Source of the DNA: Amycolatopsis jiangsuensis
GTDB taxonomy: Bacteria > Actinomycetota > Actinomycetes > Mycobacteriales > Pseudonocardiaceae
NCBI RefSeq assembly: GCF_014204865.1
Contig: NZ_JACHMG010000001.1
Location: 1,674,001 to 1,738,000 of the forward strand
Length of the DNA: 64,000 nt
Direction of reading: 5' to 3'
Of this stretch, positions 8,447-27,049 are shown in pieces (within the stretch, counting starts at the first letter, position 1; each line of letters opens with the position of its first letter). The position numbers and the translations under genes are program-made. Below the pieces are notes generated by a model that had not been told where the DNA came from, did not search any database, and saw only the letters and a list, made by a program, of their open reading frames with translations.

Positions 8447-8504
8447 AAGGGGTCCTTGAGGGACTTGGAGTCCCCCAAGGCGACTGCCTGATTGTTTACC
8501 TACT
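8447..8504 (+). other. attL of the integrative element
   Basis: The chromosomal half (8447-8474) contains AAGGGGTCCTTG and a small perfect hairpin GGGACT-TGG-AGTCCC. The core CCAAGG is at 8475-8480. The element half-site P' runs 8481-8504 and ends TGTTTACCTACT. The mirror-image partner of P' is at attR. Unlike tyrosine-integrase sites there is no long direct repeat and no tRNA gene, as expected for a large serine recombinase, whose attP arms are inverted repeats around a short crossover. Confidence 0.8.
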
Positions 8505-8614
8505 TGTGAACTCGGACGACGGCTCGTCGGGAGGTTGAGCAGGGCAGCCGACCGGACCACGCCGTAGTGCGGTTCGTCAGACCTAATCGGTCGTGTGCTC
8601 GTCGGGTGTCGGGC

Positions 8615-8980
8615 ATGATGGCTGACGTGAGTGAGCCTGCCGACGCGACCTCTGGTCACGATGTCCCGCCGAGCTTCGCCGATGAGTTGCGCCGGAGGGC
8701 GGCAGCTTTCCGGGCGTGTGCGGAGACCGAGGGACGGGCCGCCGGGTTGTTCGCCGGGCTTGATGAGCGAGGGCTCCCCGGCATGGCCGACATGCGGAGC
8801 CGTTCCGAGCGTGCTGTGCGGATGCTGACGCAGGTGGCTTCGGTGAACGCCGCGCAAGCACTCGCTTACGACGAGATGATCGCGGCCGGTGGTCCGGACG
8901 ACGCTCGGGCATACGTTGAGTACGAGGCCACCACACGGCGTCTACTTGCGCTGATGCCCGCCGACACGCTCGCCGACTGA
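8615..8980 (+). CDS. hypothetical protein of the integrative element
   Basis: 121 residues from ATG 8615 (a second ATG follows directly; an upstream in-frame start at 8567 would add a basic, unconserved-looking stretch). The protein is acidic and Ala-rich with predicted long helices: SFADELRRRAAAFRACAET, SRSERAVRMLTQVASVNAAQ and DDARAYVEYEATTRRLLAL. No signal peptide, membrane segment or known motif is visible. It is the first gene inside attL and is followed by a truncated winged-helix gene on the other strand. I do not recognise a function. Confidence 0.5.
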   Translation: MMADVSEPADATSGHDVPPSFADELRRRAAAFRACAETEGRAAGLFAGLDERGLPGMADMRSRSERAVRMLTQVASVNAAQALAYDEMIAAGGPDDARAYVEYEATTRRLLALMPADTLAD

Positions 8981-9092
8981 CGGTCGAGGCGCGTCGGAAG
9001 CCCGATGGGACGGGCGGGACGGGTCGTCGGGGGAACCCGCCCCGCCCTGCTTTGGGGCCGGTGGCTGTCCCGGCCAGCCGGTGAGCGGAGGC

Positions 9093-9386
9093 TCAGCGGC
9101 AATCGTTCGCGCGGGCTGCCGCGACTGCCTTGGACGCGGCACCGATCAGGCGTTGCCATCCGGCGAGGTGTGAGAGCAGTTGGTCACGGCCACGGTCCGA
9201 GAGCCGCCATGCTGACCGCCGCCCGTCCGTTGTCGGTCGCGTGGTCAGGTAACCCGCTATGCGCAGCGTGGCCAGTTGTTTCGACAGAACGGCCGGAGGG
9301 AGCCCCAGTTCTTCGCGGAGCGCCGAGTAGTCGTGCCACTGTTGGTCCGCCAGGAAGACGGCGATCAGTAGTCGCACTGGGGTCAC
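9093..9386 (-). pseudogene. winged-helix transcriptional regulator, 5' end replaced by IS256 copy A
   Basis: The frame encodes a compact winged helix: ALREELGLPPAVLSKQLATL as helix-turn-helix and AGYLTTRPTTDGRRSAWRLS as wing, typical of small ArsR/MarR-like regulators in which the first helix starts with TPVRLLI. Here the readable start GTGACC (9386-9381) is the terminal repeat of the adjacent IS256 element, and native codons begin at CCA 9380. Thus the original start and perhaps about ten residues were lost or displaced. A short protein starting at GTG 9377 could still be made from an IS-borne promoter. It was probably a control gene of the integrative element. Confidence 0.6.
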
Positions 9387-10820
9387 GTCCGGCGGAGTGG
9401 TGTATGAGATCGACTCCGCGTGATCTTGGTTCGGGATTCTAGGCGGTTATTGCCTCGGTTGTCATGAGTGCCTCGCTGCCGGTCGGTGCGGCTTCGGTGG
9501 TGACGATGCGGATGCGTGAGCGGGCCAGTAGATCGAGGCCCATGTAGCGGCGGTTCTCGGTCCACTCATCACTCTGTTCGGCCAGGACGGCGCCGACGAG
9601 GCGGATCAGGGAGTCGCGGCCGGGGAAGATCCCGACCACGTCGGTGCGACGGCGGATCTCCTTGTTCAGTCGCTCTTGAGGGTTGTTCGACCAGATCTGG
9701 CGCCAGACCTCGCGCGGATATGCGGTGAACGCCAGCAGCTCATCGCGGGCGTTGTCGAGGTGCTCGGCTGCGTCGGGCCAGCGCGCGGTGAGAGTGTCGA
9801 CCACGCGTCCGTACTGGGCTGTGACGGCGTCGGCGTCGGGCTGGTCGAAGATCGTGCGCACCTGCGTAGCGACATGCGGCTGCGCCGACTTCGGAACACG
9901 GGAGAGCAGGTTACGCAGGTAGTGGGTGCGACACCGCTGCCACGCCGCACCCGGCAACGCCGAGGCGATCGCCGCCACCAAGCCGGGATGGGCGTCGGAG
10001 ATGACGAGCTGGACCCCGGACAGGCCGCGGGCGACCAGACCGCGCAGGAACGCCAACCAGCCCGCTCCGTCCTCGCTGGAGGCCACATCCAGGCCGAGGA
10101 TCTCGCGGTGCCCGTCGGCGTTCACCCCGGTCGCGAGCAGCGCGTGCACGTTGACCACCCGGCCGTCTTCGCGGACCTTCACCGTGAGCGCGTCGACCCA
10201 CACGAACGTGTACGGGCCCTGGTCGAGCGGGCGCTCGCGGAACGCGGCGACCTGCCCGTCGAGGTGCGTGGCCATCTCGCTGACCTGCGAACGCGACAGC
10301 GACTTCACCCCGAGTTGTTCGGCCAGCTTCTCCACCCGCCGGGTGGAGACACCGAGTAGGTAGGCCGTGGCCACGACGGTGACCAGGGCCTGCTCGGCGC
10401 GGCGGCGGTGGGTCAGCAGCCAGTCCGGGAAATAGGAGCCCTGGCGCAGCTTCGGCACCGCCAACTCGATCGTGCCCGCTCGGGTGTCCCACTCCCGGGC
10501 CCGGTAGCCGTTGCGCTGGTTCGTCCGCTCGCTGCTGCGCTCGCCATAGCCGGCCCCGCACTGCTGATCGGCCTGCGACGACATCAACGCGTTCGCCATC
10601 GTCGCGATCATCGTCTGCAACAGATCCGGCGACACACCCGCCGAGGCGAGCTCCTCGACAAGCTGGGCAGGGTCCACACTGTGTGGTGCGGCCATCGTGG
10701 TGGTCCTTCCTGGAGTTCCTTGGTCGGTACTCGAGAAAGATCACGCGGTGGCCGTCTCACGTCACGACGCCACGCCGCTCACCAGCGACGAACCCGTACA
10801 CCACCTCCGCGGACGTAACC
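9381..10820 (-). mobile_element. IS256-family insertion sequence, copy A
   Basis: A 1440-bp element, the same length as the copy at 13148-14587 and in the opposite orientation. Terminal repeats are GGTCACGTCCGGCGGAGTGG and the complement of GGTTACGTCCGCGGAGGTGG. Flanking octamers are CGCACTGG (left) and CCCACGGG (right), so no 8-bp target duplication is present, unlike copy B. This indicates an adjacent deletion or rearrangement after insertion. Confidence 0.85.
9439..10695 (-). CDS. IS256-family (Mutator-type) transposase, copy A
   Basis: 418 residues with the DDE residues of the family: D168 in VWVDALTVKVRE, D234 in VISDAHPGLV and E341 in WSNNPQERLNKEIRRR. The motif AWQRCRTHYLRNLL is also family-typical. 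The frame is complete and the protein is identical to copy B at 13273-14529, so the two insertions are recent relative to host divergence. Confidence 0.92.
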   Translation of the reverse strand: MAAPHSVDPAQLVEELASAGVSPDLLQTMIATMANALMSSQADQQCGAGYGERSSERTNQRNGYRAREWDTRAGTIELAVPKLRQGSYFPDWLLTHRRRAEQALVTVVATAYLLGVSTRRVEKLAEQLGVKSLSRSQVSEMATHLDGQVAAFRERPLDQGPYTFVWVDALTVKVREDGRVVNVHALLATGVNADGHREILGLDVASSEDGAGWLAFLRGLVARGLSGVQLVISDAHPGLVAAIASALPGAAWQRCRTHYLRNLLSRVPKSAQPHVATQVRTIFDQPDADAVTAQYGRVVDTLTARWPDAAEHLDNARDELLAFTAYPREVWRQIWSNNPQERLNKEIRRRTDVVGIFPGRDSLIRLVGAVLAEQSDEWTENRRYMGLDLLARSRIRIVTTEAAPTGSEALMTTEAITA

Positions 10821-10952
10821 CCCACGGGCGGGACCAGGGACGGGTCTACGTCCTCGGTGAAGCCGCTGACGTGAACGAACCTTGCCATCAGGCGCCGCTC
10901 AGTTCAGGACTGGTCGGCGTCTGCCGTAGGCAGTCCGTACAGGGCATACCAC
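10821..10952. other. orphan 132-bp segment between two insertion sequences
   Basis: This short stretch between IS256 copy A and IS982 copy 2 carries an open + frame (GRVYVLGEAADVNEPCHQAP) with actinobacterial codon use and no stop, entering from one IS and leaving into the other. It looks like an internal piece of a gene cut on both sides. No family could be named and no continuation is evident at 11950. Confidence 0.4.
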
Positions 10953-11949
10953 CTAGACGGCTGATTCCGTGAAGTTAGTGTTAGTGGTCGTAGGCGATGA
11001 GTGATCGTTTGCTGGTCAGGCCGGTGTTCCAGTTGTGCCAGATGCCGGCGGCCATGGCCAGCAGGCGTTGGGCGACGCGGGTGAACACTCCGGCGGGGGT
11101 GCGTCCGCCGTGGGCTTCGAGGTCGAGCTGGCCCTTGAGGGTCTGGTTGACCGACTCGATCCGTTGACGGACACCGCCGAGGTTGCCGTTGCGGTAGGTC
11201 TCGTCCTTGCGGTCCGGGCGCAGCAACTCCAGCCCCATCGCCGCGGTCAGCTTCTTGAATTCCTTGCCGGCGAAACCCTTGTCCGCCAACAGGGTCTGGC
11301 CGTCACGAACGAGGTGGTGGTTGTGCTCGAGCAGGGCGGCCAAGACCTCGCGTTCGCCGAGTTTCGGGTTGGCCAGGCACCACATGATCGGCATGCCGTC
11401 GCCGGCGCAGACGAGGTAAAGCTTGAGCCCCCAATACCACCGAGAGTGTGACGCACAGTAGCCGTAACTGGCGTGGCCGGCCAGGTCGGAGCGCTTCACG
11501 GTTTCCCGGGACATCCCGCACGGCACCGGGGTGGCATCGGTGATCCACATGTCGTCAAACCAGGACGGACAGCACAGGGAAAGGGCCAGGATGGTCTTGC
11601 GCAGCAACGGTTCTGATGCCTTTAACCGCTTGTGGTAGCCGGACTGCCCAGGAAGATGAGCAAACCATTCACGCCACCGGGAGTCGGCATGAAGATGGCG
11701 AATCCATCGGCGCTCGGAGTCATACCGCAGCAACACTTGGGCAGTGGCCAGCGTGATCAACTCACTGTCCGTGAGTAGTGGGCGCCGTCCCCGGCCGGTC
11801 CGGGGCAGCACCACATGGTCATCGACGAGCACGTACAGTGCCGTCAGGAGGGTGTTCAGGTCGTTCTTCACAAAATGATCATGAGCACCCTCCACTCATG
11901 CCCACACTCGGGGCCACTTCACACGACCTTCACGGAATCACTCATCTAG
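10953..11949 (-). mobile_element. IS982-family-like insertion sequence, copy 2
   Basis: A 997-bp copy with the same CTAG-bounded inverted repeats as the copy at 7204-8200, here inside the integrative element. Flanks are ATACCAC on the left and AGCGTGG on the right. Together with copy 1 it provides homologous direct repeats on either side of attL. Confidence 0.82.
10981..11895 (-). CDS. IS982-type DDE transposase (copy 2)
   Basis: 304-residue protein identical to the one at 7232-8146, with D120, D205 and E247 and the YGYCAS signature. The frame is intact. The gene reads toward IS256 copy A, and both transposase genes lie on the minus strand. Confidence 0.85.
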   Translation of the reverse strand: MEGAHDHFVKNDLNTLLTALYVLVDDHVVLPRTGRGRRPLLTDSELITLATAQVLLRYDSERRWIRHLHADSRWREWFAHLPGQSGYHKRLKASEPLLRKTILALSLCCPSWFDDMWITDATPVPCGMSRETVKRSDLAGHASYGYCASHSRWYWGLKLYLVCAGDGMPIMWCLANPKLGEREVLAALLEHNHHLVRDGQTLLADKGFAGKEFKKLTAAMGLELLRPDRKDETYRNGNLGGVRQRIESVNQTLKGQLDLEAHGGRTPAGVFTRVAQRLLAMAAGIWHNWNTGLTSKRSLIAYDH

Positions 11950-12107
11950 AGCGTGGACGGGTGCCAGTTCGCCAGGGCCGAAGTCCACACCGCAGAGTGC
12001 GCTGAGCCGGGACGGGATTTCCCCGGGCGGTACGGCAAACACGTGCACTACTCGACGGGTTTCGCCCACGGTTCCTCGCACGGGACGAGCGAGAAAGACG
12101 TGCCCGG
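11950..12107. other. remnant sequence right of IS982 copy 2
   Basis: A 158-bp stretch with an open + frame that includes RYGKHVHYSTGFAHGSS and ends at a TGA near 12148, overlapping the end of the next minus-strand gene. It lacks a start outside the IS and may be the 3' fragment of the gene interrupted at 10953. Function unknown. Confidence 0.3.
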
Positions 12108-12452: not shown

Positions 12453-13147
12453 GTCCTCGGTCCCCTCCGCCGGCGCGTCCGCACCAGGGCGTCATCTCCA
12501 TTTTTGGGCCGATATAAGCGTGTACGATGAGCCTATTTCGGCGTAAGGACGTATGCGGGCCAGTAACGGGCCGCTTTGGGGACGTAGGGAGGTGCACGTG
12601 GTGGATGCAGCCAAGCGACCACGGACGCTGCTGGAACAGCGAATCTGGGGACGTAACCAGTCGTTGGCCGAGTTCGCGGAATTCGCCGAGGAGTTTGCGC
12701 GCAGCTCCGGGGAGCCGGGCACGCTCAGTGAACGGAACCTCAAGCGGCTCGTAGCCGGACGCCGGACCGATGGCGCCCCAGTCGGGCGTCCCCGTCCGGC
12801 CACGGCTCGTCTGCTGGAACGGATCTTCGGCACCGGTATAGATGAGCTTCTGGCGTCACCCGAGCGTGCCGCCGGAGCGCAATCAGATCAGCGCGAGCTG
12901 CAGACAGCCCTTGCGATCGCCCGGAGAGTCACGCCGGAGGTCGTGATGCTATTGCGCGGCCAACTGGCGGCCGTGCGCAAGCTCGACCGGCAATTGGGCG
13001 CAGCTGCTACCTACGACGAGGTCGCGGTCAAGATCGATCAGGTGATGCGCCTGCACTCCCACAGCCTGCTGGCCGGGACGCGCGACAAACTTGCCGCACT
13101 CCTCGCGGAACTGAGCGCACTCGCCGGATGGCAAGCCCTCGATCAAG

Positions 13148-14587
13148 GGTTACGTCCGCGGAGGTGGTGTACGGGTTCGTCGCTGGTGAGCGGCGTGGCG
13201 TCGTGACGTGAGACGGCCACCGCGTGATCTTTCTCGAGTACCGACCAAGGAACTCCAGGAAGGACCACCACGATGGCCGCACCACACAGTGTGGACCCTG
13301 CCCAGCTTGTCGAGGAGCTCGCCTCGGCGGGTGTGTCGCCGGATCTGTTGCAGACGATGATCGCGACGATGGCGAACGCGTTGATGTCGTCGCAGGCCGA
13401 TCAGCAGTGCGGGGCCGGCTATGGCGAGCGCAGCAGCGAGCGGACGAACCAGCGCAACGGCTACCGGGCCCGGGAGTGGGACACCCGAGCGGGCACGATC
13501 GAGTTGGCGGTGCCGAAGCTGCGCCAGGGCTCCTATTTCCCGGACTGGCTGCTGACCCACCGCCGCCGCGCCGAGCAGGCCCTGGTCACCGTCGTGGCCA
13601 CGGCCTACCTACTCGGTGTCTCCACCCGGCGGGTGGAGAAGCTGGCCGAACAACTCGGGGTGAAGTCGCTGTCGCGTTCGCAGGTCAGCGAGATGGCCAC
13701 GCACCTCGACGGGCAGGTCGCCGCGTTCCGCGAGCGCCCGCTCGACCAGGGCCCGTACACGTTCGTGTGGGTCGACGCGCTCACGGTGAAGGTCCGCGAA
13801 GACGGCCGGGTGGTCAACGTGCACGCGCTGCTCGCGACCGGGGTGAACGCCGACGGGCACCGCGAGATCCTCGGCCTGGATGTGGCCTCCAGCGAGGACG
13901 GAGCGGGCTGGTTGGCGTTCCTGCGCGGTCTGGTCGCCCGCGGCCTGTCCGGGGTCCAGCTCGTCATCTCCGACGCCCATCCCGGCTTGGTGGCGGCGAT
14001 CGCCTCGGCGTTGCCGGGTGCGGCGTGGCAGCGGTGTCGCACCCACTACCTGCGTAACCTGCTCTCCCGTGTTCCGAAGTCGGCGCAGCCGCATGTCGCT
14101 ACGCAGGTGCGCACGATCTTCGACCAGCCCGACGCCGACGCCGTCACAGCCCAGTACGGACGCGTGGTCGACACTCTCACCGCGCGCTGGCCCGACGCAG
14201 CCGAGCACCTCGACAACGCCCGCGATGAGCTGCTGGCGTTCACCGCATATCCGCGCGAGGTCTGGCGCCAGATCTGGTCGAACAACCCTCAAGAGCGACT
14301 GAACAAGGAGATCCGCCGTCGCACCGACGTGGTCGGGATCTTCCCCGGCCGCGACTCCCTGATCCGCCTCGTCGGCGCCGTCCTGGCCGAACAGAGTGAT
14401 GAGTGGACCGAGAACCGCCGCTACATGGGCCTCGATCTACTGGCCCGCTCACGCATCCGCATCGTCACCACCGAAGCCGCACCGACCGGCAGCGAGGCAC
14501 TCATGACAACCGAGGCAATAACCGCCTAGAATCCCGAACCAAGATCACGCGGAGTCGATCTCATACACCACTCCGCCGGACGTGACC
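13148..14587 (+). mobile_element. IS256-family insertion sequence, copy B
   Basis: 1440 bp, beginning GGTTACGTCCGCGGAGGTGG and ending with the complement of GGTCACGTCCGGCGGAGTGG. It is an inverted copy of the element at 9381-10820; the 2.3 kb between them could be inverted by homologous recombination. It interrupts the XRE/TPR regulator gene. Confidence 0.92.
13273..14529 (+). CDS. IS256-family (Mutator-type) transposase, copy B
   Basis: Complete 418-residue DDE transposase identical to copy A (D168, D234, E341). It starts with ATG preceded by AGGAAGGACC 6-7 bases upstream. It is transcribed in the same direction as the gene it interrupts, so transcripts from the regulator promoter may read into it. 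Confidence 0.92.
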   Translation: MAAPHSVDPAQLVEELASAGVSPDLLQTMIATMANALMSSQADQQCGAGYGERSSERTNQRNGYRAREWDTRAGTIELAVPKLRQGSYFPDWLLTHRRRAEQALVTVVATAYLLGVSTRRVEKLAEQLGVKSLSRSQVSEMATHLDGQVAAFRERPLDQGPYTFVWVDALTVKVREDGRVVNVHALLATGVNADGHREILGLDVASSEDGAGWLAFLRGLVARGLSGVQLVISDAHPGLVAAIASALPGAAWQRCRTHYLRNLLSRVPKSAQPHVATQVRTIFDQPDADAVTAQYGRVVDTLTARWPDAAEHLDNARDELLAFTAYPREVWRQIWSNNPQERLNKEIRRRTDVVGIFPGRDSLIRLVGAVLAEQSDEWTENRRYMGLDLLARSRIRIVTTEAAPTGSEALMTTEAITA

Positions 14588-15212
14588 CGATCAAGGCCAA
14601 GTCTCTGTTGCATGGGACCACTACGAACGTGCGAAACAGGCCGCGGGTCAGCAGGGAGACGCCGCCGCAGCCGTACACGTCGAGGCGGAACAAGCGTTTG
14701 TGCTGCTGGACCTCGGACATGCGAAGGAAGCAGCCGAGCTACTGGCGACCGCCGAGGACAGCGCACGAGGCACGTCCGGACGTCTTCTGCGTGCCTGGCT
14801 GGCAGCCGCACACGGGGAAGCACTCGCCGCGAGCAAGGAACGCTCTGCCAGTTTGCGAGCCTTCGACCGCGCGGAATCGCTGATGCCGCCCGGCCCCGCC
14901 GACGCGGAGAGCCCTTACCTCGTTCTTGACACCATCCACCTCGCCCGTTGGCGAGGAAACGCACTTGCCCGCATCGGCGAGGCAGAAGCTGTCGACGTCC
15001 TCGCCGCAGCTTTGCGGAACCTCGATCCGACGTTCACGCGTGCGGAAACAGGACTCCGGGTCGATCTGGCAACCGCGTTGATCGCAAGCGGAGAACGCGA
15101 CGAAGCACGCCAGCACCTCACGAAAGCACACGCGCTGGCAGCCGAAATTGGCTCAGTCCGCCAGCTACGCCGCCTCGCCGCTCTGTCGGATGCGTGACAG
15201 CGACGAGCATGG

Positions 15213-15986
15213 TCAGGCGTCTAGTCCGCGCAGGGTCTGGTCCAAGGTCGCGGTGATGTAGTCGGCGCTTCCCGGGCCACACGAGATAATGTCGTTGCCG
15301 TTCGGACCGTTCTGGAGGAACGTCAGCAATCGCCCGTGGTCGACTGTGTCCACGGCGGTCAGCGGATAGCTGGACGAACGCACGCCATTCGTCCGGCTGG
15401 CCACGTAGAACTGGTGTACCGCGCGGCGCGGCGCGGCCATCAGCGCCCGGACCTGCTCTGCCGCATCCGGCGCGGTGTAGTCGCTGGTCAGGTCCAGGTC
15501 GAAGGACTCGGATGCGGATCCCGTCCCGTACTCCGAACGGGGCACCCGGATCTCGCTAATTTTGGCAGGGCGAACGTCCGGAAGGGTGTCCACCGTCGCC
15601 CGGCACAACCGGCCGGCCGGAATTTGCACCAATGTCGCCTCGTCATCGTCCACGGTGATCAGCAAGGCAGAACGCCCAGCGAGGACAGCCAGCGAACCCG
15701 ATTTGCGTTCGTCACGCCGACTGGATATCCGGTAGCACTCCGCGTCGGCGGTCGAGATGCCCAGCAGCACGTCCCGGAAGTCTCCGGTCAGCCGCTGCCG
15801 ACGCAGGTCATAGAAGCCGGGCTCAGCGAGGGATTGCCGCATCAGTTCGCTGAACGATGCTACTGCGTCGTTTTCGAGCCACCATTCCACGATCCCCAGC
15901 ACGGGGTGTGCTGGACCGATTCGTTCGCCCTCCCATGCCCAGGCGAGAGCCACCCGTGGCACCGTCACCGGTTTGTCGATCACCAT
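15213..15986 (-). CDS. ESX secretion-associated protein, EspG family
   Basis: 257 residues. EspG proteins are cytosolic chaperones that bind PE/PPE-type substrates of type VII secretion. The N-terminus MVIDKPVTVPRVALAWAW and the pattern HPVLGIVEWW, then a mixed alpha/beta body and a C-terminal helix, match Pseudonocardiaceae EspG proteins I recall. It is the last gene of a four-gene minus-strand module with a PPE-like gene 6 bp upstream, which is its expected substrate. No membrane segment is present. The module sits inside the integrative element, separate from the eccC-type ATPase gene at 57890. Confidence 0.8.
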   Translation of the reverse strand: MVIDKPVTVPRVALAWAWEGERIGPAHPVLGIVEWWLENDAVASFSELMRQSLAEPGFYDLRRQRLTGDFRDVLLGISTADAECYRISSRRDERKSGSLAVLAGRSALLITVDDDEATLVQIPAGRLCRATVDTLPDVRPAKISEIRVPRSEYGTGSASESFDLDLTSDYTAPDAAEQVRALMAAPRRAVHQFYVASRTNGVRSSSYPLTAVDTVDHGRLLTFLQNGPNGNDIISCGPGSADYITATLDQTLRGLDA

Positions 15987-15992
15987 GATCGG

Positions 15993-17267
15993 CTATTTGC
16001 CGATCACCGGCGGAACGGCCTTGCCATCGTATCCGAACAAGGCATTCGGATCCGGTTCCAACAAGTACGAAGCGGACTTCTTCTCCTTGTCCTCTTCCTT
16101 GTTGCCCTTTCCGCCTGCAGCACCCATCGGCATGCCGTTCGCACCCCGGGCGCCGGACGAACCTGTCCCGCTCCCACCGCGCGTCATCGACTCTTCCGCT
16201 GCGCCGAACCTGCCGCCCGAACCGGTCGACCGCCCCGCGCCGCCAAGACCACCTGATCGGGAACCTCCACCGGTCGCCCCCGGCGTCCTTTCACCGGTGC
16301 CCGCTTCTCCCGGGCCGGACACGCCGGATGCGAAGCCGCCACCGAAGCCAGACCCACCGCCAAGCCCGCTCCCGGGACCGTAGGAGGACGACCCTCCGCC
16401 ACCCGGCCCAATCGGATTGAGCCGCGCCGGGTCGCCGTTCCAGCCGCCTACCGGACCGGACGCCGGGGGCGGGACTACGCCGGAGGTATGTGTTCCGTCG
16501 CCATCGTTTCCTTGCGCGGCAGGCACCTGCAGGTTGCCCGCGGAGCCGGTCCCGACGTTTCCCGGGTGGTACTGCGTGGGTGACGAAACCGACGAACCGT
16601 CCTGTGCCGAGCTACCCGGACCGGACAAGTGCGGCTGGAATGCGGAATGCCCGGAATTCGCAGCCTGCTGATTTCCTGTGTCGGAAGAATTTCCGATGGA
16701 GAAGTCACCCTGTGCGTCGGGCATCTGTCCATACTCGGTGGGCATCGTCTGCGCGTGCCCGTCACTGGTGGAGGTGAACCCCTGGTAGATCTGCTTGTTC
16801 TGCTGGATTGCCGCGTTGTTCTTGTTGATCTGATCCTCGGTGTCGGTGTCCCACACCGTCAGTACATCAACCGCGTCCCGCTCCGGTGGCGAGTCGGATA
16901 CCTCCTGCATCGAGTCCCGAGTGGACTGAAATGCATGTGACTGATCCGTCAGTGTGTTCTGCCCGGTACCCAACGCCATCGACGCGGCAGTTGCTGCCTG
17001 CGTCAGCGGCTGCAGCCCACCCCGGGCCGCGTCACCGCTCTGTCCGGACCACGCAGCCTCCAGCCGGGCCACGATCGCCCGCGTGTCCGATTCGATCTCG
17101 TGCTGCTCGGACGCCTGGGACATGCTGACCTGCTGGGCTTCTCCGAGGCTGCCCGGACCCGGGCCGCCCTTCACCCGCCGCACCAGTTCCCCGGGCAGGA
17201 TCAAGTTGCCCTGGCTCTGCTGCAACTGCATCCACGCTCTGACCGCGTCAGCCGGACCGGACATCAC
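15993..17267 (-). CDS. PPE-like ESX substrate with Gly/Ser-rich tail
   Basis: 424 residues. About residues 1-150 are helical with a WSGQSGDAARGGLQPL element (the W-x-G turn of WXG100/PPE proteins) and long helices on either side (SQASEQHEIESDTRAIVARLEAAW). Residues 190-395 are low-complexity Gly/Ser/Pro-rich. The protein ends with SYLLEPDPNALFGYDGK, a tail often seen on actinobacterial PPE-like proteins. GTG 17267 overlaps the DUF3558 stop by 4 bp; ATG 17264 is an alternative. It is the likely exported substrate handled by the EspG encoded downstream. Confidence 0.75.
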   Translation of the reverse strand: MMSGPADAVRAWMQLQQSQGNLILPGELVRRVKGGPGPGSLGEAQQVSMSQASEQHEIESDTRAIVARLEAAWSGQSGDAARGGLQPLTQAATAASMALGTGQNTLTDQSHAFQSTRDSMQEVSDSPPERDAVDVLTVWDTDTEDQINKNNAAIQQNKQIYQGFTSTSDGHAQTMPTEYGQMPDAQGDFSIGNSSDTGNQQAANSGHSAFQPHLSGPGSSAQDGSSVSSPTQYHPGNVGTGSAGNLQVPAAQGNDGDGTHTSGVVPPPASGPVGGWNGDPARLNPIGPGGGGSSSYGPGSGLGGGSGFGGGFASGVSGPGEAGTGERTPGATGGGSRSGGLGGAGRSTGSGGRFGAAEESMTRGGSGTGSSGARGANGMPMGAAGGKGNKEEDKEKKSASYLLEPDPNALFGYDGKAVPPVIGK

Positions 17268-18282: not shown

Positions 18283-18498
18283 TTGCTGCCTCCCCTGTCG
18301 CACTGTGGGCATCTAGCCTCGCACCGATAGTAGCCAACCGGCAACAACCTGTCCGGAGAACGCCGGAGATCACCCCTGTGAGCGTCTGCACCACGTCTGA
18401 CGTGGCGATATACGATCGCAGGGAGATTCACCCCAAGGCGTCCGACGTCCGTCGGATGGACGTGCCACCGACGTTGAGCACCCCGTAGGGTGCTGGGC

Positions 18499-19086
18499 GT
18501 GGCTGACGAGCATGGTGCATGGAAAACCTTCGGTGAGCGGACCATCTACGACAACAAATGGGTCCGGCTGGGCCTGACCGACGTGCAGGCGCCGAACGGC
18601 GAGCGGTGGGACTACCACGTCGTGCACCTGGCTCGAATCGCCATCGGCCTGATCGTGGACGACCGGGATCGGGTGTTGATGCTCTGGCGCTATCGGTTCC
18701 CCACTGACCAGTGGGGCTACGAACTGCTCGGCGGGTTGGTCGAGGAGGACGAGGAACCGGCCGCCACGGCCGCCCGCGAGATCCGGGAAGAGAGTGGCTA
18801 TCAGCCGATCGGCGAAGCCGAACATTTGATCAGCTTCGAGCCGCTGCCCGGCCAGGTCACCGCGGGTACCGAGGTGTATCTGTGGCGCGCAGCCGAGAAG
18901 GTTGGCGAGCCGACCGATACCGAGGAAGTCGGCAGGCTGGAATGGGTTCCGATCAGCCGGATACTCGAACTGGCGCAGCGGCAAGAACTTCTCGGCGCGG
19001 GTGCGCTGGTGCCGCTGCTGTACTACGTCGCCTCACGCGGCACCGGGAATGCTGCTGGGCAGGATCAAGCGCCCGAGCCTGCGTAG
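18499..19086 (+). CDS. NUDIX hydrolase (ADP-ribose pyrophosphatase-like; possible Pif-type factor)
   Basis: 195 residues. The NUDIX box fits G-x5-E-x7-REUxEExG: GLVEEDE then EPAATAA then REIREESG. The N-terminus GERTIYDNKWVRL and the body resemble ADP-ribose pyrophosphatases. NUDIX proteins are frequent in actinomycete integrative elements; in pSAM2 the Pif immunity factor is a NUDIX protein, so a transfer-immunity role is possible here (inference). GTG 18499 is preferred over 18490 by comparison with family N-termini. The 3' end overlaps the convergent regulator gene by 54 bp, an unusually long tail-to-tail overlap. Confidence 0.85.
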   Translation: MADEHGAWKTFGERTIYDNKWVRLGLTDVQAPNGERWDYHVVHLARIAIGLIVDDRDRVLMLWRYRFPTDQWGYELLGGLVEEDEEPAATAAREIREESGYQPIGEAEHLISFEPLPGQVTAGTEVYLWRAAEKVGEPTDTEEVGRLEWVPISRILELAQRQELLGAGALVPLLYYVASRGTGNAAGQDQAPEPA

Positions 19087-20166
19087 CTGCCGGTCGGACT
19101 TGATCTGTGCGGCGAGCCGCCGCGCCTGCCGTGCATGGGTGAGCGCGGCGTCACGGTCACCCGCTGCCGCGTAGGCGATTGCCAGGTCGACCAGCATTCC
19201 CGTCTTGGCCCGAATGAAGTCCATCGGCAGGCGAGGCAGCGCGTCGTTGAGCTGCTGGATTGCGTCCGATTCGCCGAGCTTGCTCAGCGCGTGGCCGCGC
19301 CAGCGGTCAAGGTGCGCCCCGCCCAGGAAGAGGAACGGCAGCGACGGGTCCACGGGGTCGGTGGGCAGCAGCACGTCTGCGGCGTCGAACGCGCGCAACG
19401 CGTTGTCGCGCTGACCTGCTGCCGAGAGTCCTTCGCCGTGCGCCGCTGCCATCCAGGAACGCAACAGTGGTGGCGCTGAATGTTCGGCAATTCTGCGTGC
19501 CTCAGCGAGTTGCTCTACCGCCATCTCGGCTTCCCCGAGGTCGATCAAGATGAATGCCTGTTGCGCGATCGAGTGGGCGAGCAAGATCTGTGAGCCTGCC
19601 TCGCGGGCCGCCGACTTGGCCGTTTCGTGGTGCTCCCACGACTGCCGGGTGGCGTTGCGGTCGAGTGCTTCCCAGCCGGCCAACGCGGACGCCTCGGTCA
19701 GCACCCCGGCCAGTGCTTCGCGCTGGCCACGCATGGTGCTGAAGCCGAGCAAGCCCTGAAGCTGATCGATATTGCCGCGTAGCTGGTCGAGCAGGGGCAC
19801 TCCGCCCAACCGTCGGTCGACGTGTCGTGCCTGGTCGACCTGGCGCCGGAAGATCTCGACGGTCTCGGCGTCGACCGACCGCGCGAGAGTCAGGCGGGAC
19901 ACGAGTTCTTCCGCCTCGTCGTCCGTCTCCTCGGGCGGGAATCCGAGTTCGTCGTTCGTCCGGCCGTATACCTCGCGGAACAGCCGCCGGTACGGCTGAC
20001 TGACGGCTTCGTGGCCGTTCTCCCAGCGCGACAGCTTGACTTTGAGACTTGCTGCCGACATGACCGGCGTGCCGAGTTCGTCAGCGCGCCGCAGCAGCAT
20101 CCGAATGACTTCTTCGGCCTTGTAGTCCAGCTGTCTGCGGACGGCTTGAAGCCTCGTATCAGCCAT
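19033..20166 (-). CDS. XRE-type regulator with TPR-like sensor region
   Basis: 377 residues. The N-terminus has a helix-turn-helix-like region (MSAASLKVKLSRWENGHEAVSQPYRRLF, containing the conserved LSRWENG) followed by about 280 residues of helical TPR-like repeats (AGWEALDRNATRQSWEHH, SIAQQAFILIDLGEAEMAVEQL, HALSKLGESDAIQQL). It is the intact paralogue of the gene split at 12598-15197. Such proteins often couple control of mobile-element genes to a peptide or protein signal. It is convergent with, and overlaps, the NUDIX gene. Inverted TAACCGCG/CGCGGTTA sequences lie just upstream of its start. Confidence 0.85.
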   Translation of the reverse strand: MADTRLQAVRRQLDYKAEEVIRMLLRRADELGTPVMSAASLKVKLSRWENGHEAVSQPYRRLFREVYGRTNDELGFPPEETDDEAEELVSRLTLARSVDAETVEIFRRQVDQARHVDRRLGGVPLLDQLRGNIDQLQGLLGFSTMRGQREALAGVLTEASALAGWEALDRNATRQSWEHHETAKSAAREAGSQILLAHSIAQQAFILIDLGEAEMAVEQLAEARRIAEHSAPPLLRSWMAAAHGEGLSAAGQRDNALRAFDAADVLLPTDPVDPSLPFLFLGGAHLDRWRGHALSKLGESDAIQQLNDALPRLPMDFIRAKTGMLVDLAIAYAAAGDRDAALTHARQARRLAAQIKSDRQLRRLGRLILPSSIPGAA

Positions 20167-20183
20167 CGGCCGGACCCGCGCGA

Positions 20184-20348: not shown

Positions 20349-20762
20349 CTACTGCTCGTCCCGGTTGCCCAGCGCCGCACCGAGGTCAGCCCTCAGCCCG
20401 GCGAGTTGTTCGGTGATCTCGGACAGCCGGAGCTCAATCACCGCAAGCCGTGCGGACACTGCGTCCTCCATGTCTTCCCGAGGTTGGCCCGGGGCCGGCG
20501 GAATCCGGCCGTGCAACACGGCCAGCAGGTGCTGCGGGTGCAGTTCGAGGGCCAGCGCCAGGGCTTCCAAGGTCCGATCGCTGCGCTTGCGTTCGACGGT
20601 GTGGTTCTGAATTTCCCGGACAATCGCCTGGGAGACCTGCGAACGCGCGGCCAGTTCGCGTTGCTTCCATCCGAGCGCCTGCACGCGCTCGTTGATGACC
20701 CTCGCAACCGCCGCCCAGTCTTCCGACACCCATTCCTCCGTGGTCCGCCTCAGCGCCGACAT
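20349..20762 (-). CDS. XRE-family helix-turn-helix regulator
   Basis: 137 residues. A clear Cro/CI-type helix-turn-helix lies in the first 65 residues: WKQRELAARSQVSQAIVREIQNHTVERKRSD read in parts (RELAARSQVSQAIVREIQ as the HTH). A C-terminal helix ARLAVIELRLSEITEQLAGLRADLGAAL is a likely coiled coil for dimerisation. It is divergent from the Xis-like/WhiB/tra operon starting at 20899, with a 136-bp AT-rich gap holding direct repeats, and is the best candidate repressor of transfer genes. Confidence 0.82.
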   Translation of the reverse strand: MSALRRTTEEWVSEDWAAVARVINERVQALGWKQRELAARSQVSQAIVREIQNHTVERKRSDRTLEALALALELHPQHLLAVLHGRIPPAPGQPREDMEDAVSARLAVIELRLSEITEQLAGLRADLGAALGNRDEQ

Positions 20763-20835
20763 TAGCGCGTAACGGATTCCCCGCGGCCTAGATCGACTTC
20801 GCGTCGCGCGTTCGGACCATTTACGCGCCTTGTTG

Positions 20836-20869: not shown

Positions 20870-20898
20870 TCATTTTCTGACTCAAGGGACTCAATCCA

Positions 20899-21419: not shown

Positions 21420-21748
21420 TGACGTTCCATCTTACTGCGGCTCAGGTCCTCGTCGGGGCAATGGTATTGGCCGCACTGTTCGCGGTGTGGCGACTGGGCG
21501 TACGGAAGGCGCGTCGCGCGGAGGAACGGGTTCGGGCCGGTGCGCGCGTGGTGTCGTTGGCCGGTCGTGTGCTGTTCACGGGCGCCGCGTTCACGGGCGT
21601 TCAGTGGCTGGTGATCACGCACCCGGGCAATCCGACACTGTTGCTCGTGGTGCTCGGGCTGCCCGACCTGGTGGCCGCTTACCTCTTGACCCGCGTGTTG
21701 ACCGTGACCTCGCTGGACACCGCGCGCCGGGGCGGTGATCGCCGATGA
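21419..21748 (+). CDS. small membrane protein of the transfer operon
   Basis: 109 residues with three hydrophobic segments: AAQVLVGAMVLAALFAVW, VLFTGAAFTGVQWLVI and LLLVVLGLPDLVAAYLL, separated by a basic loop (RKARRAEERVRAG). ATG 21419 overlaps the WhiB stop and follows GGGGAGGTGGGG. Small polytopic proteins with this position in AICEs (Spd-like) assist spread of the element within recipient mycelium; that role is inferred from context only. Confidence 0.65.
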   Translation: MTFHLTAAQVLVGAMVLAALFAVWRLGVRKARRAEERVRAGARVVSLAGRVLFTGAAFTGVQWLVITHPGNPTLLLVVLGLPDLVAAYLLTRVLTVTSLDTARRGGDRR

Positions 21749-22491
21749 TGGCGCACAACAAGGCGTTGCGGCTGGCCGAAGACTCGGCAGCGGCAGCGGA
21801 GGTACGCCGCTGGCAGACCGACCCTGAGGTAGTGGCACTGCGGGTGGAACGCATCCGCACTCAGGTAGACCGACTGTGCTGGGCAGGAATTCTGCTCGGG
21901 TTGGCGTTCACGACCGCCAATGTCCAGGGCTTCGCCGCCGCTGGCGCGGCGGCCTGGTCGTTGCCGTGGTCGACCGCGTGGCTGTTGGACCCGACCGTGT
22001 GCCTCGTGCTGCTCGCGATCTTGCGCGCCGAGCAGGTCACCGCGCGATACCAGGTACGGACGGGCCGGTGGGTGCGCGCGGCGAAGTGGTTCACGCTTGC
22101 CGCCACGTACGTGATGAACACCTGGTCATCATGGGCGGCAGGCTCGCCGGCGGGAGTGGTGCTGCATTCCGTTCCGCCGCTCGTCGTGTTCGTCGCGGCC
22201 GAGGCGGTGACGGATCTGCGGGACAAGCTCACTGAAGGCGTACAGGTCGCGTTCACACACGCCATGAACGGAGCGGAAGTTCATGAACCGCGCTTGCCGG
22301 ACCCGCAACGTCCGGTACGGCGCAAGCTGTTCGGTGACTACCTCGCCGCCGCTCGGCAAGCGTGGGCGCCGGGAGTTGTCGTCACCCCGGCGTGGGTGCG
22401 GGACGTCTCCGGCTGTTCGCGCGGCTTGTCCTCCCGGCTTGCCACCACGCTGGCCGCCGAAGTCGGGAAGGGGGACGGCGATGAGCGCTGA
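21745..22491 (+). CDS. DUF2637-family membrane protein
   Basis: 248 residues. Four hydrophobic segments (WAGILLGLAFTTANVQGFAA, LLDPTVCLVLLAILRAEQ, FTLAATYVMNTWSSWAAG, VVLHSVPPLVVFVAAEAV) form the DUF2637 region, followed by a cytosolic C-terminal part ending in an HTH-like PAWVRDVSGCSRGLSSRLATTL. DUF2637 proteins accompany TraSA-type translocases in actinomycete plasmids and ICEs. It overlaps the preceding and following genes, by 4 and 11 bp. Confidence 0.78.
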   Translation: MMAHNKALRLAEDSAAAAEVRRWQTDPEVVALRVERIRTQVDRLCWAGILLGLAFTTANVQGFAAAGAAAWSLPWSTAWLLDPTVCLVLLAILRAEQVTARYQVRTGRWVRAAKWFTLAATYVMNTWSSWAAGSPAGVVLHSVPPLVVFVAAEAVTDLRDKLTEGVQVAFTHAMNGAEVHEPRLPDPQRPVRRKLFGDYLAAARQAWAPGVVVTPAWVRDVSGCSRGLSSRLATTLAAEVGKGDGDER

Positions 22492-24862
22492 CCCCCAACG
22501 TCACGAGGACAATCACGCGGCTCTGACCTCCACCGGCACACAGGGCGTCGAGCACGTCGGCCCAGTGCTGGACGGCGAACTGATCGACGACACCTTGCCC
22601 CAACCACGAACCCGCACGGCGTCCGGCCGTGGGGCGAGGTGGTGGCGAACCTGCTGCGAGGCCGCTGGTCGACTCTGGCGCTCCGGTCCGCTGCTGCGGG
22701 CGCGGTCGATCGGGACGTACCGGGCACGTAAAGCCCCGCTCGACCTCTCGCGGCTGATCTGGTTCGTCCTACGCGGAAACTGGCGGTGGCTGGTCAAGTT
22801 CTGGAGTTGGGCTACCTATGCCGACCTGCGGGCGGACGCGCGGCGTGCCCGGCTGGCCGGTGATGGTGAAGCGCGCAGGACGGCACAGGAGTTGATCCGG
22901 TCGGACGCCACGGCGAGGTGGGCCAAGGTAGGTATCGCGCTCCGCCGGTGCGCGATGACGCTGCGGGTGGCCGCCCCGGTTGCTGCACTGCTGTGGCTGG
23001 TCGACTCAGTGATGACCCGCTCGGACATGTGGCCCTGGCTGGCCGAGGTGTACGCGGACCTGACGGCCGTCTGGTCGGCACTCACAGTGGCAATTCCGGT
23101 CGTGCTGGTGCTGGCGCCGACCGCTTGGGCGGTGGCAGCAGCATTTGAAGGACGCGACCGCACGCCCGGTGCCAGCTGGCTCGTACGTCCCGACCGCGAG
23201 GACGCCGATTCTTGGATCGATGAACGGATGATCTCAAAAGCGTTGGCGCACCTGGGAATCGCTCCGTTGGATCGGTTCTACAAGGACGGAGGCGATCTGG
23301 TCTACACCGTTGTGGCACGCAAGGACGGAGACGGCACGTTCGCGCAGATCAGGTTGCCGCTCGGCGTCACTGCGGACATGGTCGCGGCCCGACGGTCGAA
23401 ACTGGCCGCAAACCTCGGCCGCGCGTCATTGGAAACCTGGCCCACCAAGGGAGATGAAGACGGGCTTCTCGATCTGTGGGTAGCCGACAAGGGTGTCTTG
23501 CAAGGCGGGGCCGGTGCCTGGCCCCTGGTCCACGAAGGACAGGTAGACATATTCGAGGGTGTCCCGTTCGGACTGTCGCAACGCGGCCGAGTCATCAACG
23601 CCCCGCTGGTTGGGGTGAACTGGCTGATCGGCGGTAGGCCCGGCCAAGGCAAGTCGGCCGCGTTGCGGACGCTACTGCTCGGCGCCGCGCTCGATCCCAC
23701 CGCCGAACTGTGGGCGTTCGTCATGGGCGAGTCGCCCGACTTCGACCCGTTCGCGCCACGCCTGACCCGCTACCGGATGGGCATGGACGACAGCGTGGCC
23801 GAAGCCGCAACTCAGGCACTCGCGGACCTCCTGACCGAAATGGAGCGACGCGGCCGGGTACTGGGCGAGCAGCCGGGCCGTCCGCCGAAGGTGTCGCGCA
23901 AGCTGGCCGACAAGCGTGGACTTGGGCTGCACCCGCTGGCGTGCGGGATCGATGAGTGTCACGAACTGTTCCAGCACCCGAAGTACGGCAAGAAGGCAGC
24001 CGAACTGGCGGTGCGGCTGATCAAGCGGGGCCGCAAGTACGGCATCGTGTTGTTGCTGGCGACCCAGTCACCGACGAAGGACAGCATACCTCGCGAGATC
24101 ACCCGCAACGTCTCCTGCGGTGTCGCGTTCTCCGTGGCCGACCAGGTCGCGAACGACGGGCTGTTGGGGTCGGGCAAGTATTCGGCCGGCATCCGCGCCA
24201 CCGAGCTACGCATCAACACCGACCGGGGAACGTGCGTAGCCGTCGGCATCACCGATGAGACGTTCGAGCTGGTGCGCACGTTCTACGTCCCGTTCGAAGA
24301 CGGGGCCGACGACGTGACTCCGGTCATCGCACGCGCCATGGAACTGATCGAGGGAGCAGGCCGGGAGATCGAGTCCGGTTCACGACCGGAGACCGAAGCA
24401 ACCGAACCTGTGGAGGTCGACCACCTCGCCGATATCGCGGCGGTCTGCGACGGGCAGAAGCGCGTACGCACACAGGTCGTGCTCGCCCGGCTGATCGCCC
24501 GCAACCCGGAGGAGTACGACGGGTGGACCCTGCGCGACCTCACCGCCGCGCTCGCGGCGCACGGCCTCGCCCCGGCCAAGTCAGACGGGAACAAGGTCGT
24601 CCGCGCCGACGACCTCGCCACCGCGCTTGCTGACCGGCAGCGTGACAGCGCCGACGACGGCAGGGAGGCAGACAGGGACCAGACAGGGAGCCAGGGACTT
24701 ATCCCTGACCGGTCCCTGACCCAAAATCCCTGGACTGACCAGCGGAAACACGTCTCAGGAGCTACGGGGACCCGCCACCGGAACAACCCCGAGAACGCCC
24801 GGAAACAGGGTCCGGAGACCACTGGACCCGGGTCCCTCCCCGGGGGCGCCGATGACCGGTAG
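22481..24862 (+). CDS. FtsK/SpoIIIE-type conjugal DNA translocase (TraSA-like)
   Basis: 793 residues from ATG 22481, which overlaps the DUF2637 stop. Membrane segments at about 162-174 and 200-220 anchor the N-terminus. The motor domain has Walker A GRPGQGKS (385-392) and a Walker B-like LACGIDECHELF near 490, followed by KYGIVLLLATQSPT. A C-terminal winged-helix-like region (WTLRDLTAALAAHGL) precedes a low-complexity tail. TraSA/TraB proteins pump double-stranded DNA between hyphae without nicking. The tail is encoded by a cluster of CAGGGA/TCCCTG repeats. Confidence 0.9.
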   Translation: MSADPQRHEDNHAALTSTGTQGVEHVGPVLDGELIDDTLPQPRTRTASGRGARWWRTCCEAAGRLWRSGPLLRARSIGTYRARKAPLDLSRLIWFVLRGNWRWLVKFWSWATYADLRADARRARLAGDGEARRTAQELIRSDATARWAKVGIALRRCAMTLRVAAPVAALLWLVDSVMTRSDMWPWLAEVYADLTAVWSALTVAIPVVLVLAPTAWAVAAAFEGRDRTPGASWLVRPDREDADSWIDERMISKALAHLGIAPLDRFYKDGGDLVYTVVARKDGDGTFAQIRLPLGVTADMVAARRSKLAANLGRASLETWPTKGDEDGLLDLWVADKGVLQGGAGAWPLVHEGQVDIFEGVPFGLSQRGRVINAPLVGVNWLIGGRPGQGKSAALRTLLLGAALDPTAELWAFVMGESPDFDPFAPRLTRYRMGMDDSVAEAATQALADLLTEMERRGRVLGEQPGRPPKVSRKLADKRGLGLHPLACGIDECHELFQHPKYGKKAAELAVRLIKRGRKYGIVLLLATQSPTKDSIPREITRNVSCGVAFSVADQVANDGLLGSGKYSAGIRATELRINTDRGTCVAVGITDETFELVRTFYVPFEDGADDVTPVIARAMELIEGAGREIESGSRPETEATEPVEVDHLADIAAVCDGQKRVRTQVVLARLIARNPEEYDGWTLRDLTAALAAHGLAPAKSDGNKVVRADDLATALADRQRDSADDGREADRDQTGSQGLIPDRSLTQNPWTDQRKHVSGATGTRHRNNPENARKQGPETTGPGSLPGGADDR
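24661..24732. repeat. cluster of CAGGGA and TCCCTG hexamers inside the traSA 3' end
   Basis: CAGGGA occurs at 24661, 24673, 24684 and 24692; its complement TCCCTG at 24702, 24713 and 24727, giving a dense, overall inverted array. In TraB-type systems the translocase recognises short repeated octamers at the clt locus near its gene, so this is a candidate cis-acting transfer site (inference). The array is coding, which may explain the odd Asp/Gln-rich tail. Confidence 0.45.
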
Positions 24863-25055: not shown

Positions 25056-25086
25056 GCACAGCGATGACCAGCCCCTACGATCACCA

Positions 25087-25126
25087 CGTCGGGTTGCCGG
25101 ACCCCAAAGTCGGCAACCCGACGTTT
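25087..25126 (+). terminator. intrinsic-terminator-like hairpin after the tra operon
   Basis: A perfect 13-bp stem, CGTCGGGTTGCCG (25087-25099) with CGGCAACCCGACG (25111-25123), loop of 11, followed by TTT and a T-rich stretch. It lies 31 bp past the last gene of the tra operon and just outside the end of the convergent small membrane gene, so it may terminate both. Confidence 0.75.
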
Positions 25127-25129
25127 GTG

Positions 25130-25387
25130 TCACCTGTTGGCGTTCACGAGCGACACAACTGCAGTGACCAGCAAGCCAATGACGCCGATACCCGCCAGTA
25201 CGTACCCAGCGAGAGCGATGAGTCCGCCGCCTATGTCAGCTCCCTGACCGAGCGACCCAATGTGGGTCACCTGGGACCCGTAAAACACGATGAGCAAGAC
25301 AGCGCCAACAGCGAACGTGATAAGAAACGCGCGCCTGAAGAGCCGTATAGCCGACCTCGGATCGTTCATCGCGTAATCCCTCCACAT
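25130..25387 (-). CDS. small two-helix membrane protein
   Basis: 85 residues (a start at MNDPRS, six residues in, is equally likely). Two hydrophobic segments, FLITFAVGAVLLIVFYG and LIALAGYVLAGIGVIGLLVTAVVSLV, separated by a short Gly-rich loop, with a basic N-terminal stretch (RSAIRLFRRA). No signal cleavage site. Base composition is less GC-rich than the surroundings. It stands alone between the tra operon and the integrase gene and is bracketed by direct repeats. Function unknown; entry-exclusion or superinfection-immunity proteins can look like this (speculative). Confidence 0.55.
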   Translation of the reverse strand: MWRDYAMNDPRSAIRLFRRAFLITFAVGAVLLIVFYGSQVTHIGSLGQGADIGGGLIALAGYVLAGIGVIGLLVTAVVSLVNANR

Positions 25388-25446
25388 CTTACGATCACCA
25401 CGTCAGGTTGCCGGATCCGCCATATCAGCATGCCAACGTTGGTGTG

Positions 25447-26925
25447 TCAGGGCACCTCTGGCGGAGGCAGCGGCCGGAGGCGGTTCCTGTCGAACGACCG
25501 TTTCCCGGTGCGGTCAGCCGGAGACACCATCATCCGGTCCCGCCCCAACGCACGCGTGAGCATCGCCCGCCGCTCGGCGATATCGCCGGTCTCCCACTCA
25601 TCGGCCAGCGTCTGAGCCGACGCAGCCTCAGTCGGCCCCGCCGGGCCTTGCGCAGTCAAGGCAAACCGCTCCGCACTCAACCGCGCCAGATCAGTCGCCA
25701 ACGGTTCGTTCGCGACGTCGAACGCGTCCAGCGAGATACGGCGCGCCCCCAACCGCTCCGACAGCGCCTGCTGTAACCCCTCAATCTGCGTAATCTCCGC
25801 CCGCACCTCACCCAGCCGGTCGCTGGTCCGCGACTGCAATGCCGACACCTCGCGTGCGTGCTGCTCGTCCAAGAGACGCGCCACGGTGAACGCCAGCAAC
25901 TCCCGATCGACGGCGCGTCCGTCGATGAACACCGTGCCGCACCCCCGCCGCTGCTTGGGGCAGAAGTACTGGTAGCGCCACTGCCCATCCTCGGGGTAGG
26001 TCGCTTCCTTATTGTTGCGGGCGCTCAACTTCCGGCCGCACACCGCGCACCGCAGAATCCCGGTCCCCACATGCGCCTTGCCCGCGACCCGTCCCCGCTT
26101 ACGGCCCGCATACAGCGCCTGCACCCGCTCGAACGTCCGCTGGTCCAACACCGGTACGCCCGGCAACCGGCCCGCAACCGCACCGTGATGGACGATGAAC
26201 CCGCCCAGCGCCTGCCGTTTCATGATCGCCGTGGCAGTGTCCGCAGTGAATTCCAGGCCGTTCACCGACCGCAAACCGCGCCCGTTCCACAGATCGGCCA
26301 CCTTCTGCGCCGACCCATCCTCGGACAACAGCAACTCCGCCCCGTCCCGAATCGCAGCGCGTTCCCGCTCGACCTGCTCACCCGCCACCTGGGGCCGATC
26401 CGCATTCGTCTCGTCTGGCCCCGGCACCCACCGCGTGTCACGGCCCGGGAACCCGAACCGACGCTGACCACCGGTGTCCTTACCTTGCTCTCGATACGTC
26501 GCGAACCGTCGCTTGAGCCGCCGTGAGGTGTCATCCGAGGAGCGGGCCGCGTGCGCGACCTCGATCCGCAGAATGAACCGGTCGTCCGGGTCGGCCAAGT
26601 CCCGCTCACCATGCGCGGAATACACCTTGAACCCGCGCTCACCCAACTCGATCAACGTTTCCAGGTCGCGCGGCTGCCGGAACAGGCGGTCGGTATGCCA
26701 GACCACAATCCCGTCCGACTCACCCGACTCCACCCGCTCCAACAGCCGCTCCCACCCCGGCCGCCGAACCCCCCGCTTCCACGCGGACAGCCCGTCCTTC
26801 AACTCCACACCCAGACAGGCCCCCACCCGCGTGATCACCGTGCGGTTGTCCGCCCACTGAGTGTCGATCTTCTCCAGCTCACCCGTCTCCGGCACCTTCG
26901 ACAACCGACCATACGAGTCCAACAA
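25447..26925 (-). CDS. large serine recombinase (integrase)
   Basis: 492 residues. N-terminal resolvase domain with YGRLS (catalytic S9), GVRRPGWERLLERVESGESDG and the conserved VVWHTDRLFR; recombinase domain around residues 155-275; zinc ribbon C293, C296, C322, C329; then a coiled coil (about 340-375). The start is a TTG pair at 26925/26922 since no ATG or GTG precedes the in-frame stop at 26953-26955. It catalyses attP x attB integration through a 2-bp staggered cut. The gene lies 60 bp inside attR and reads away from it, the normal arrangement. Confidence 0.92.
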   Translation of the reverse strand: MLDSYGRLSKVPETGELEKIDTQWADNRTVITRVGACLGVELKDGLSAWKRGVRRPGWERLLERVESGESDGIVVWHTDRLFRQPRDLETLIELGERGFKVYSAHGERDLADPDDRFILRIEVAHAARSSDDTSRRLKRRFATYREQGKDTGGQRRFGFPGRDTRWVPGPDETNADRPQVAGEQVERERAAIRDGAELLLSEDGSAQKVADLWNGRGLRSVNGLEFTADTATAIMKRQALGGFIVHHGAVAGRLPGVPVLDQRTFERVQALYAGRKRGRVAGKAHVGTGILRCAVCGRKLSARNNKEATYPEDGQWRYQYFCPKQRRGCGTVFIDGRAVDRELLAFTVARLLDEQHAREVSALQSRTSDRLGEVRAEITQIEGLQQALSERLGARRISLDAFDVANEPLATDLARLSAERFALTAQGPAGPTEAASAQTLADEWETGDIAERRAMLTRALGRDRMMVSPADRTGKRSFDRNRLRPLPPPEVP

Positions 26926-26984
26926 CTTGGCTGCCGCCGGCCCTGACCTGCACTAACCTCGTCGCTGCCACCCATGACAACCAC

Positions 26985-27021
26985 AGTAGGTAAACAAGAC
27001 TGGTGTCGCCAAGGACCCCTT
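26985..27021 (+). other. attR of the integrative element
   Basis: The element half-site P (26985-27008) is AGTAGGTAAACA followed by a variable middle and GTCG; read on the minus strand it mirrors P' of attL at the same distance from the core. Core CCAAGG is 27009-27014. The chromosomal half ACCCCTT (27015-27021) completes, with 8447-8480, a long hairpin in the reconstructed empty site. Confidence 0.8.
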
Positions 27022-27049
27022 CACTGCCCGCCGCAGGGGAGCAGCGCGG

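Follow-up and report, generated by a model that had tools for sequence, protein, structure and literature searches.

Related serine-integrase elements of Amycolatopsis lie in dispersed palindromic repeats

Insertion sequences that target REP palindromes exist, and the phiRv1 element of Mycobacterium tuberculosis can use several copies of its repeat, which is gene-sized. This prophage-like element carries a serine recombinase and lies in the repeated sequence REP13E12 (PMC9317374). Serine integrases bind short duplexes made up of inverted half-sites, in which exchange takes place at a central dinucleotide (PMC4111918), and for the multi-targeting large serine recombinases the targeting of multi-site sequences has been named as one possible cause (PMC10083194). 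In a survey of actinomycete ICEs (AICEs), 19 of 144 use serine recombinases, and the targets of these are protein genes or tRNA-Leu (PMC3218068). Multi-target serine integrases, and phiRv1 in a repeat, are thus already known. Here we describe element A, an integrative element of Amycolatopsis jiangsuensis, from a window of 64,000 nucleotides (the whole stretch of DNA that was analysed, C1:1674001-1738000 of the 8.05-Mb genome), together with its relatives.

REP-targeting insertion sequences resemble element A in using dispersed palindromes as landing sites, but they work by transposases and have no attP, attL or attR. While phiRv1 is a prophage in a gene-sized repeat, we found an FtsK-bearing element in short palindromes of intergenic type that reach hundreds of copies. 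The likeness to phiRv1 is that of a serine-recombinase element placed in repeated host sequence (PMC9317374). The multi-targeting serine recombinases described in PMC10083194 place one integrase group at many sites, much as related integrases occupy many different sites here, but their clade mostly carries DUF4368 (common, not universal), which is absent from the Pfam matches of the element A integrase at E up to 0.001; in the main text of that paper "palindrom", "repetitive" and "terminator" never occur. AICEs share with element A the pairing of integrase and FtsK-type translocase, and differ in their targets, protein genes or tRNA-Leu in that survey (PMC3218068) as against palindromic repeats here, and in that no replication initiator family was seen in the frames scanned here. 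Our literature search, which covered titles and the starts of abstracts with subscription papers mostly beyond reach, returned no integrative elements that target such palindromes, a result that does not show absence from print.

Ends, integrase and gene content of element A

The earlier note had described the window's element as complete, with attL and attR derived from an inverted-arm attP. Element and ends are borne out by three such elements in this genome and by 14 from related ones. "Complete" is not, since the copy contains three IS, one NsdA-like gene is broken off, a winged-helix gene has lost part of its length and the leader of the integrase is not in frame (Table 1). We recovered the direct repeat CCAAGG at 8475-8480 and 27009-27014 and the inward mirror arms (CGAC, eight bases, TGTTTACCTACT) at both ends as described, and a recount again matched the two ends at 18 of 24 positions; the identical arm run is one base longer than previously noted, TTGTTTACCTACT. 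The reverse-complemented right arm scores at least 18 of 24 only at 8481 on the + strand of the window, and of 300 trials with letter-shuffled arms one gave a score of 18 at any place in the window. Independent support comes from B and D, two further elements in this genome, which carry the same arms at both ends. It is hardly credible that the mirror arms arose by chance or through IS traffic at the left end: that end does lie within a 3.75-kb, IS-bounded and CTAG-flanked unit found also at 2.30 Mb, but D, 14 other elements and B, which is without these IS copies, have the same ends, and these related elements refute the idea.

The six-base core CCAAGG that had been proposed did not survive comparison of A, B and D, which gives a core of two bases, AA. 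attL reads CCAAGG in A and TGAAGG in both B and D, and attR reads CCAAGG in A and D and CCAAAG in B; we place the crossover at the central AA because this is what attL (TGAAGG) and attR (CCAAAG) of B share. The two AA dinucleotides of element A are 18,534 bp apart, which makes it an element of 18.5 kb. Joining the host halves on either side of A rebuilds a target palindrome, which had been overlooked earlier.

The large serine integrase gene predicted just inside attR was confirmed by Pfam, with Resolvase (PF00239, E 1.6e-15) and zinc ribbon (PF13408, E 1.1e-5) matches over cut-off and a PF07508 match of 20.3 bits slightly under its cut-off of 21.1, and by a PHROG match named "integrase" (E 4e-57). 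A leader ATG at 26975 (the stretch 26925-26975) does not share the frame of the catalytic domain in element A, unlike the leader in all eight relatives shown, where it is in frame.

A transfer-type translocase had also been claimed, and an FtsK/SpoIIIE-type protein with one homologue named TraB was indeed found; its gene has a relative in B and is 65-77% identical over most of its length in seven of the other elements compared. Profile matching bore out the NUDIX gene. The DUF2637 assignment stood in part, as some homologues of the protein at 21745-22491 are so named but it has no Pfam match at E up to 1. Among the scanned reading frames, a subset of all frames, we found neither the WhiB nor the Xis family, contrary to what had been suggested. 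Pfam matches to replication initiators (RepSA, RepAM, Prim-Pol) were likewise absent from the subset of frames scanned, in which there was one weak RPA match (E 0.12) in an antisense frame. The EspG, PPE-like, DUF3558 and PE-like cargo genes recall type VII secretion partners, and similar sets occur in B, G055, G071, G068-2 and G046.

Judged from its sequence, the window's copy looks worn, with three IS inside and one beside it, two interrupted genes and the integrase leader out of frame. The IS beside it, at 7204-8200 and outside attL, is an identical copy of the CTAG-flanked IS within; the two Mutator-type copies we take to be of the IS256 family (Pfam PF00872). The 3.75-kb unit occupies 8197-11950 of the window, from an IS-end-like inverted repeat at 8201 to an IS end, and carries attL of element A and its first genes. 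An identical second copy lies at about 2300664-2304416 of C1, there too with CTAG on both sides, as if the unit had been transposed. We also noted that C1:2060888-2060991 and its vicinity (L003, L015) are 79% identical to 8608-8980 of the window, the first gene of the element, isolated elsewhere in the genome.

Table 1. Features of element A and its host flanks, in window coordinates.
Feature	Position	Strand	Basis
Host side of attL, left part of target palindrome AAGGGGTCCTTGAGGGACTTGGAGTCCCCC	8447..8476	+	palindrome when joined to 27013 onward
attL, core AA 8477-8478, inward arm CGAC-N8-TGTTTACCTACT	8475..8504	+	sequence, A/B/D comparison
Winged-helix regulator, 97 aa (115 aa in B), abuts first IS256-type copy	9093..9386	-	
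Mutator-type IS, presumably IS256, copy 1	9380..10821	-	Pfam PF00872
IS flanked by CTAG on both sides	10953..11950	-	
NsdA-like gene fragment, 217 aa (409 aa in B), stops at second IS256-type copy	12553..13206	+	
Mutator-type IS, presumably IS256, copy 2, 100% identical to copy 1	13147..14588	+	
Cargo: EspG family, PPE-like, DUF3558, PE-like	15213..18312	-	PPE and PE (E 0.01) below Pfam cut-off
NUDIX hydrolase	18490..19086	+	
NsdA-family TPR-like regulator	19033..20166	-	
HTH_3 type regulator	20349..20762	-	
Protein with homologues partly named DUF2637	21745..22491	+	homologue names
FtsK/SpoIIIE-type translocase, TraB-like by one homologue's name	22283..24862	+	PF01580, E 2e-8
Large serine integrase, frame opens at TTG	25447..26925	-	Pfam, PHROG
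attR, core AA 27011-27012, mirror arm	26985..27014	-	sequence, A/B/D comparison
Host side of attR, rest of target palindrome GGACCCCTTCACTG	27013..27026	+	sequence, half pairing

Related elements and their palindromic targets

The integrase of element A has an 86% identical partner 0.7 Mb off, in element B, and a further relative in a remnant, D, at 2.536 Mb. Element B is intact (17.7 kb), is without A's IS copies and aligns to A piecewise at 78-87% DNA identity; D is a decayed remnant of 4.9 kb. Three elements thus occupy three sites in one chromosome, and the joined host halves are palindromic in each. This, and near-identical copies at two sites in genome G060 (below), make it very improbable that element A is an ordinary single-site actinomycete ICE with an incidental palindrome, even though a serine integrase with an FtsK-type translocase is a known AICE combination (PMC3218068).

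Integrase matches at E up to 1e-50 were found in 20 of 80 genus genomes, 28 matches in all with three in the window's own genome. From the 25 loci in other genomes 22 were fetched (a copy on G044 contig 2 and two G059 copies were left out). Searching with each element's own arm and the shared motif located attL at 14 of these 22 loci, an earlier strict motif having given none; at the other eight (G067, G010, G062, G045, G023, G005 and two early-ending G044 contigs) no attL was found. Our both-end set accordingly comprises 17 Amycolatopsis elements, namely A, B, D and the 14 relatives, and in all 17 attL and attR are the two parts of one attP, whose inverted arms stand on either side of a central dinucleotide common to both ends.

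The integrases fall into two groups, each of which enters a palindromic repeat family of its own. In group I (n=8: A, B, D, G006, G008, G055, G071 and G072) the crossover is at AA, TT stands at +8,+9 after the core in all eight right halves, and the core sits off-centre inside a palindrome arm. In group II (n=9: G068 twice, G019, G046, G060 three times, G070 and G031) the crossover is at AG (GG in G031) and falls at the centre of CGTGAGTG...CACTCACG palindromes. Right ends at which attL was not located resemble the same repeats by eye in G067, G062, G045, G023 and the G044 copies, while those of G010, G005 and G059 show no such likeness by eye. A scan for any palindrome in the fetched DNA gave mostly unclassified ones, and these were excluded from our counts.

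The two host halves of a site pair with each other better than with those of other sites. Mean pairing scores were 12.0 for own against 6.6 for swapped halves in group I (permutation p 0.0006) and 21.1 against 12.9 in group II (0 of 20,000 permutations). With the right halves shuffled 200 times per group, scores peaked at 9 in group I and 8 in group II, values exceeded by 15 of the 17 elements; the exceptions by pairing score are G006, an imperfect palindrome, and G008, whose score is low because its crossover at the outer edge leaves few cross-junction pairs. The own partner was best in six of eight group I rows and eight of nine group II rows, with another element's right half pairing better elsewhere.

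If the integrase needed only a loose motif (in group I, AA followed by TT eight bases later) or preferred the ends of genes, it might hit palindromes simply because they are common there. Group I targets do differ much from one another, gene ends of relatives bear palindromes of different families at the same place, and loose multi-target serine recombinases are known (PMC10083194). We nevertheless consider this improbable, as group II sites share the long conserved outer arms CGTGAGTG...CACTCACG flanking the core and the own halves of a site match each other in its variable part. Somewhat less probable still is recognition of an extruded hairpin, that is of structure and not of duplex sequence. 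Palindromes of 30-50 bp do make up nearly all of the located sites, as this would require, but the serine integrases described so far bind duplex sites with inverted half-sites (PMC4111918), and the off-centre crossover of group I as against the central one of group II, each with its own repeat family, speaks for sequence.

Dispersal of the repeats and repeated landing

Searching the 80 genus genomes for the whole group II palindrome with up to three mismatches, we found it in 62, whereas a reversed-pattern control gave none in all 80. Copy number ranges from 0 to about 565 per genome, with 29 in the window's genome, 229 in G060, 276 in G068, 500 in G070 and 564 in G079; the pattern picked up a single copy in G031, even though this genome carries a group II element. 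The nine group II carriers have a median of 85 palindromes per genome against 8 in the 71 others (one-sided p 0.004, not corrected for kinship). An arm pattern for one group I repeat had 16 forward and 14 reverse matches in the window's genome (controls 1 and 0); it matched in 74 of 80 genomes, with only about 15 copies in the window's genome. At one gene end by the G060-3 right flank (L121, L122, L123, L125) and at one by dxs (L102, L108), the palindrome families differ across species, and such hairpins therefore appear to turn over or to spread by themselves.

The use of several repeat copies by one element is best supported by G060 and G044. In G060 two palindromes about 3.35 Mb apart each hold a 13-kb copy, and the identity between the two copies is 99.97% across 11.6 kb and 99.87% across 3.1 kb. 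Three contigs of G044 carry copies whose right flanks differ but which, across 3.1 kb surrounding the integrase, are at least 99.9% identical; two of these contigs end inside the element.

Of 19 relatives fetched, 18 have the genes that flank B side by side with no element between them, with a gap of 92-1225 bp as measured in 11 of the 18; these empty sites are gene-level and not base-exact because the intergenic stretch varies. Among the loci compared (B, D and G060-3) no base-exact empty site was obtained. Part of the left flank of D is present at the loci of five relatives, the stretch before dxs being strongly variable, and in G009 its place holds an intact palindrome, which is supportive though not base-exact. 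The right flank of G060-3 occurs without the element in seven close relatives, four of which have another palindrome there, while its left flank had no match in the relatives compared. The right flank of element A, a LacI-type regulator, was found at E up to 1e-40 in one of 80 genus genomes, its own, and in none of the 79 others.

Proposed mechanism and integrases outside the genus

With ends, core, palindromic target, dispersed repeats and several near-identical copies per genome in evidence, what sets this system apart is an attB that belongs to a dispersed family of palindromes. We strongly favour a mechanism in which the serine integrase of the element would recombine attP with one copy of a dispersed palindromic host repeat. 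The predicted attP reads GTCGCC-AA-GGCGAC, in which inverted arms flank a core of two bases, and TGTTTACCTACT follows further out in both directions; the repeat itself would be recognised by the integrase as duplex attB, and recombination would leave part of the palindrome on either side of the inserted element. The many copies of the repeat leave room for several elements in one genome. The element may also excise, and the FtsK-type translocase probably serves conjugative transfer.

More broadly, the comparison of sequences makes it likely that a family of FtsK-bearing elements in the Pseudonocardiaceae has integrases specialised on dispersed host palindromes, which would have switched between unrelated repeat families in evolution. 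The repeats would offer such integrases a ready-made field of attB sites, and within the chromosome the element would be almost a target-specific transposon. By aiming at a repeat an integrative element can evade the limit of one site yet keep a precise crossover, and this accounts for several related elements per chromosome. The two groups also provide two natural integrase series in which attP and attB are mapped as far as the crossover dinucleotide. These are useful in practice for inserting several copies into the antibiotic-producing genus Amycolatopsis, and the elements raise the testable question of whether palindrome spread is linked to element spread.

In a tree of 33 rows the group II integrases form one clade with support of 100/100. 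Family-wide, the integrase has matches at E up to 1e-130 in 13 of 200 genomes, of which 11 belong to other genera. Eleven of the 12 outside-genus loci were examined (G251 was left out). Both ends lie in palindromes by eye at two of the 11, G259 and G157, the latter an Allokutzneria; five others have candidate motifs only, without a clear palindrome, and four have nothing. The target in G259 is of the CACTCACGAG type, yet its integrase falls outside group II, so that the history of target switching is not simple. An integrase scan of named genomes gave one locus, an Allokutzneria. In the Allokutzneria genome G157 (L034, L168), several repeats of AACG...CGTT type stand side by side, adjoining the element ends.
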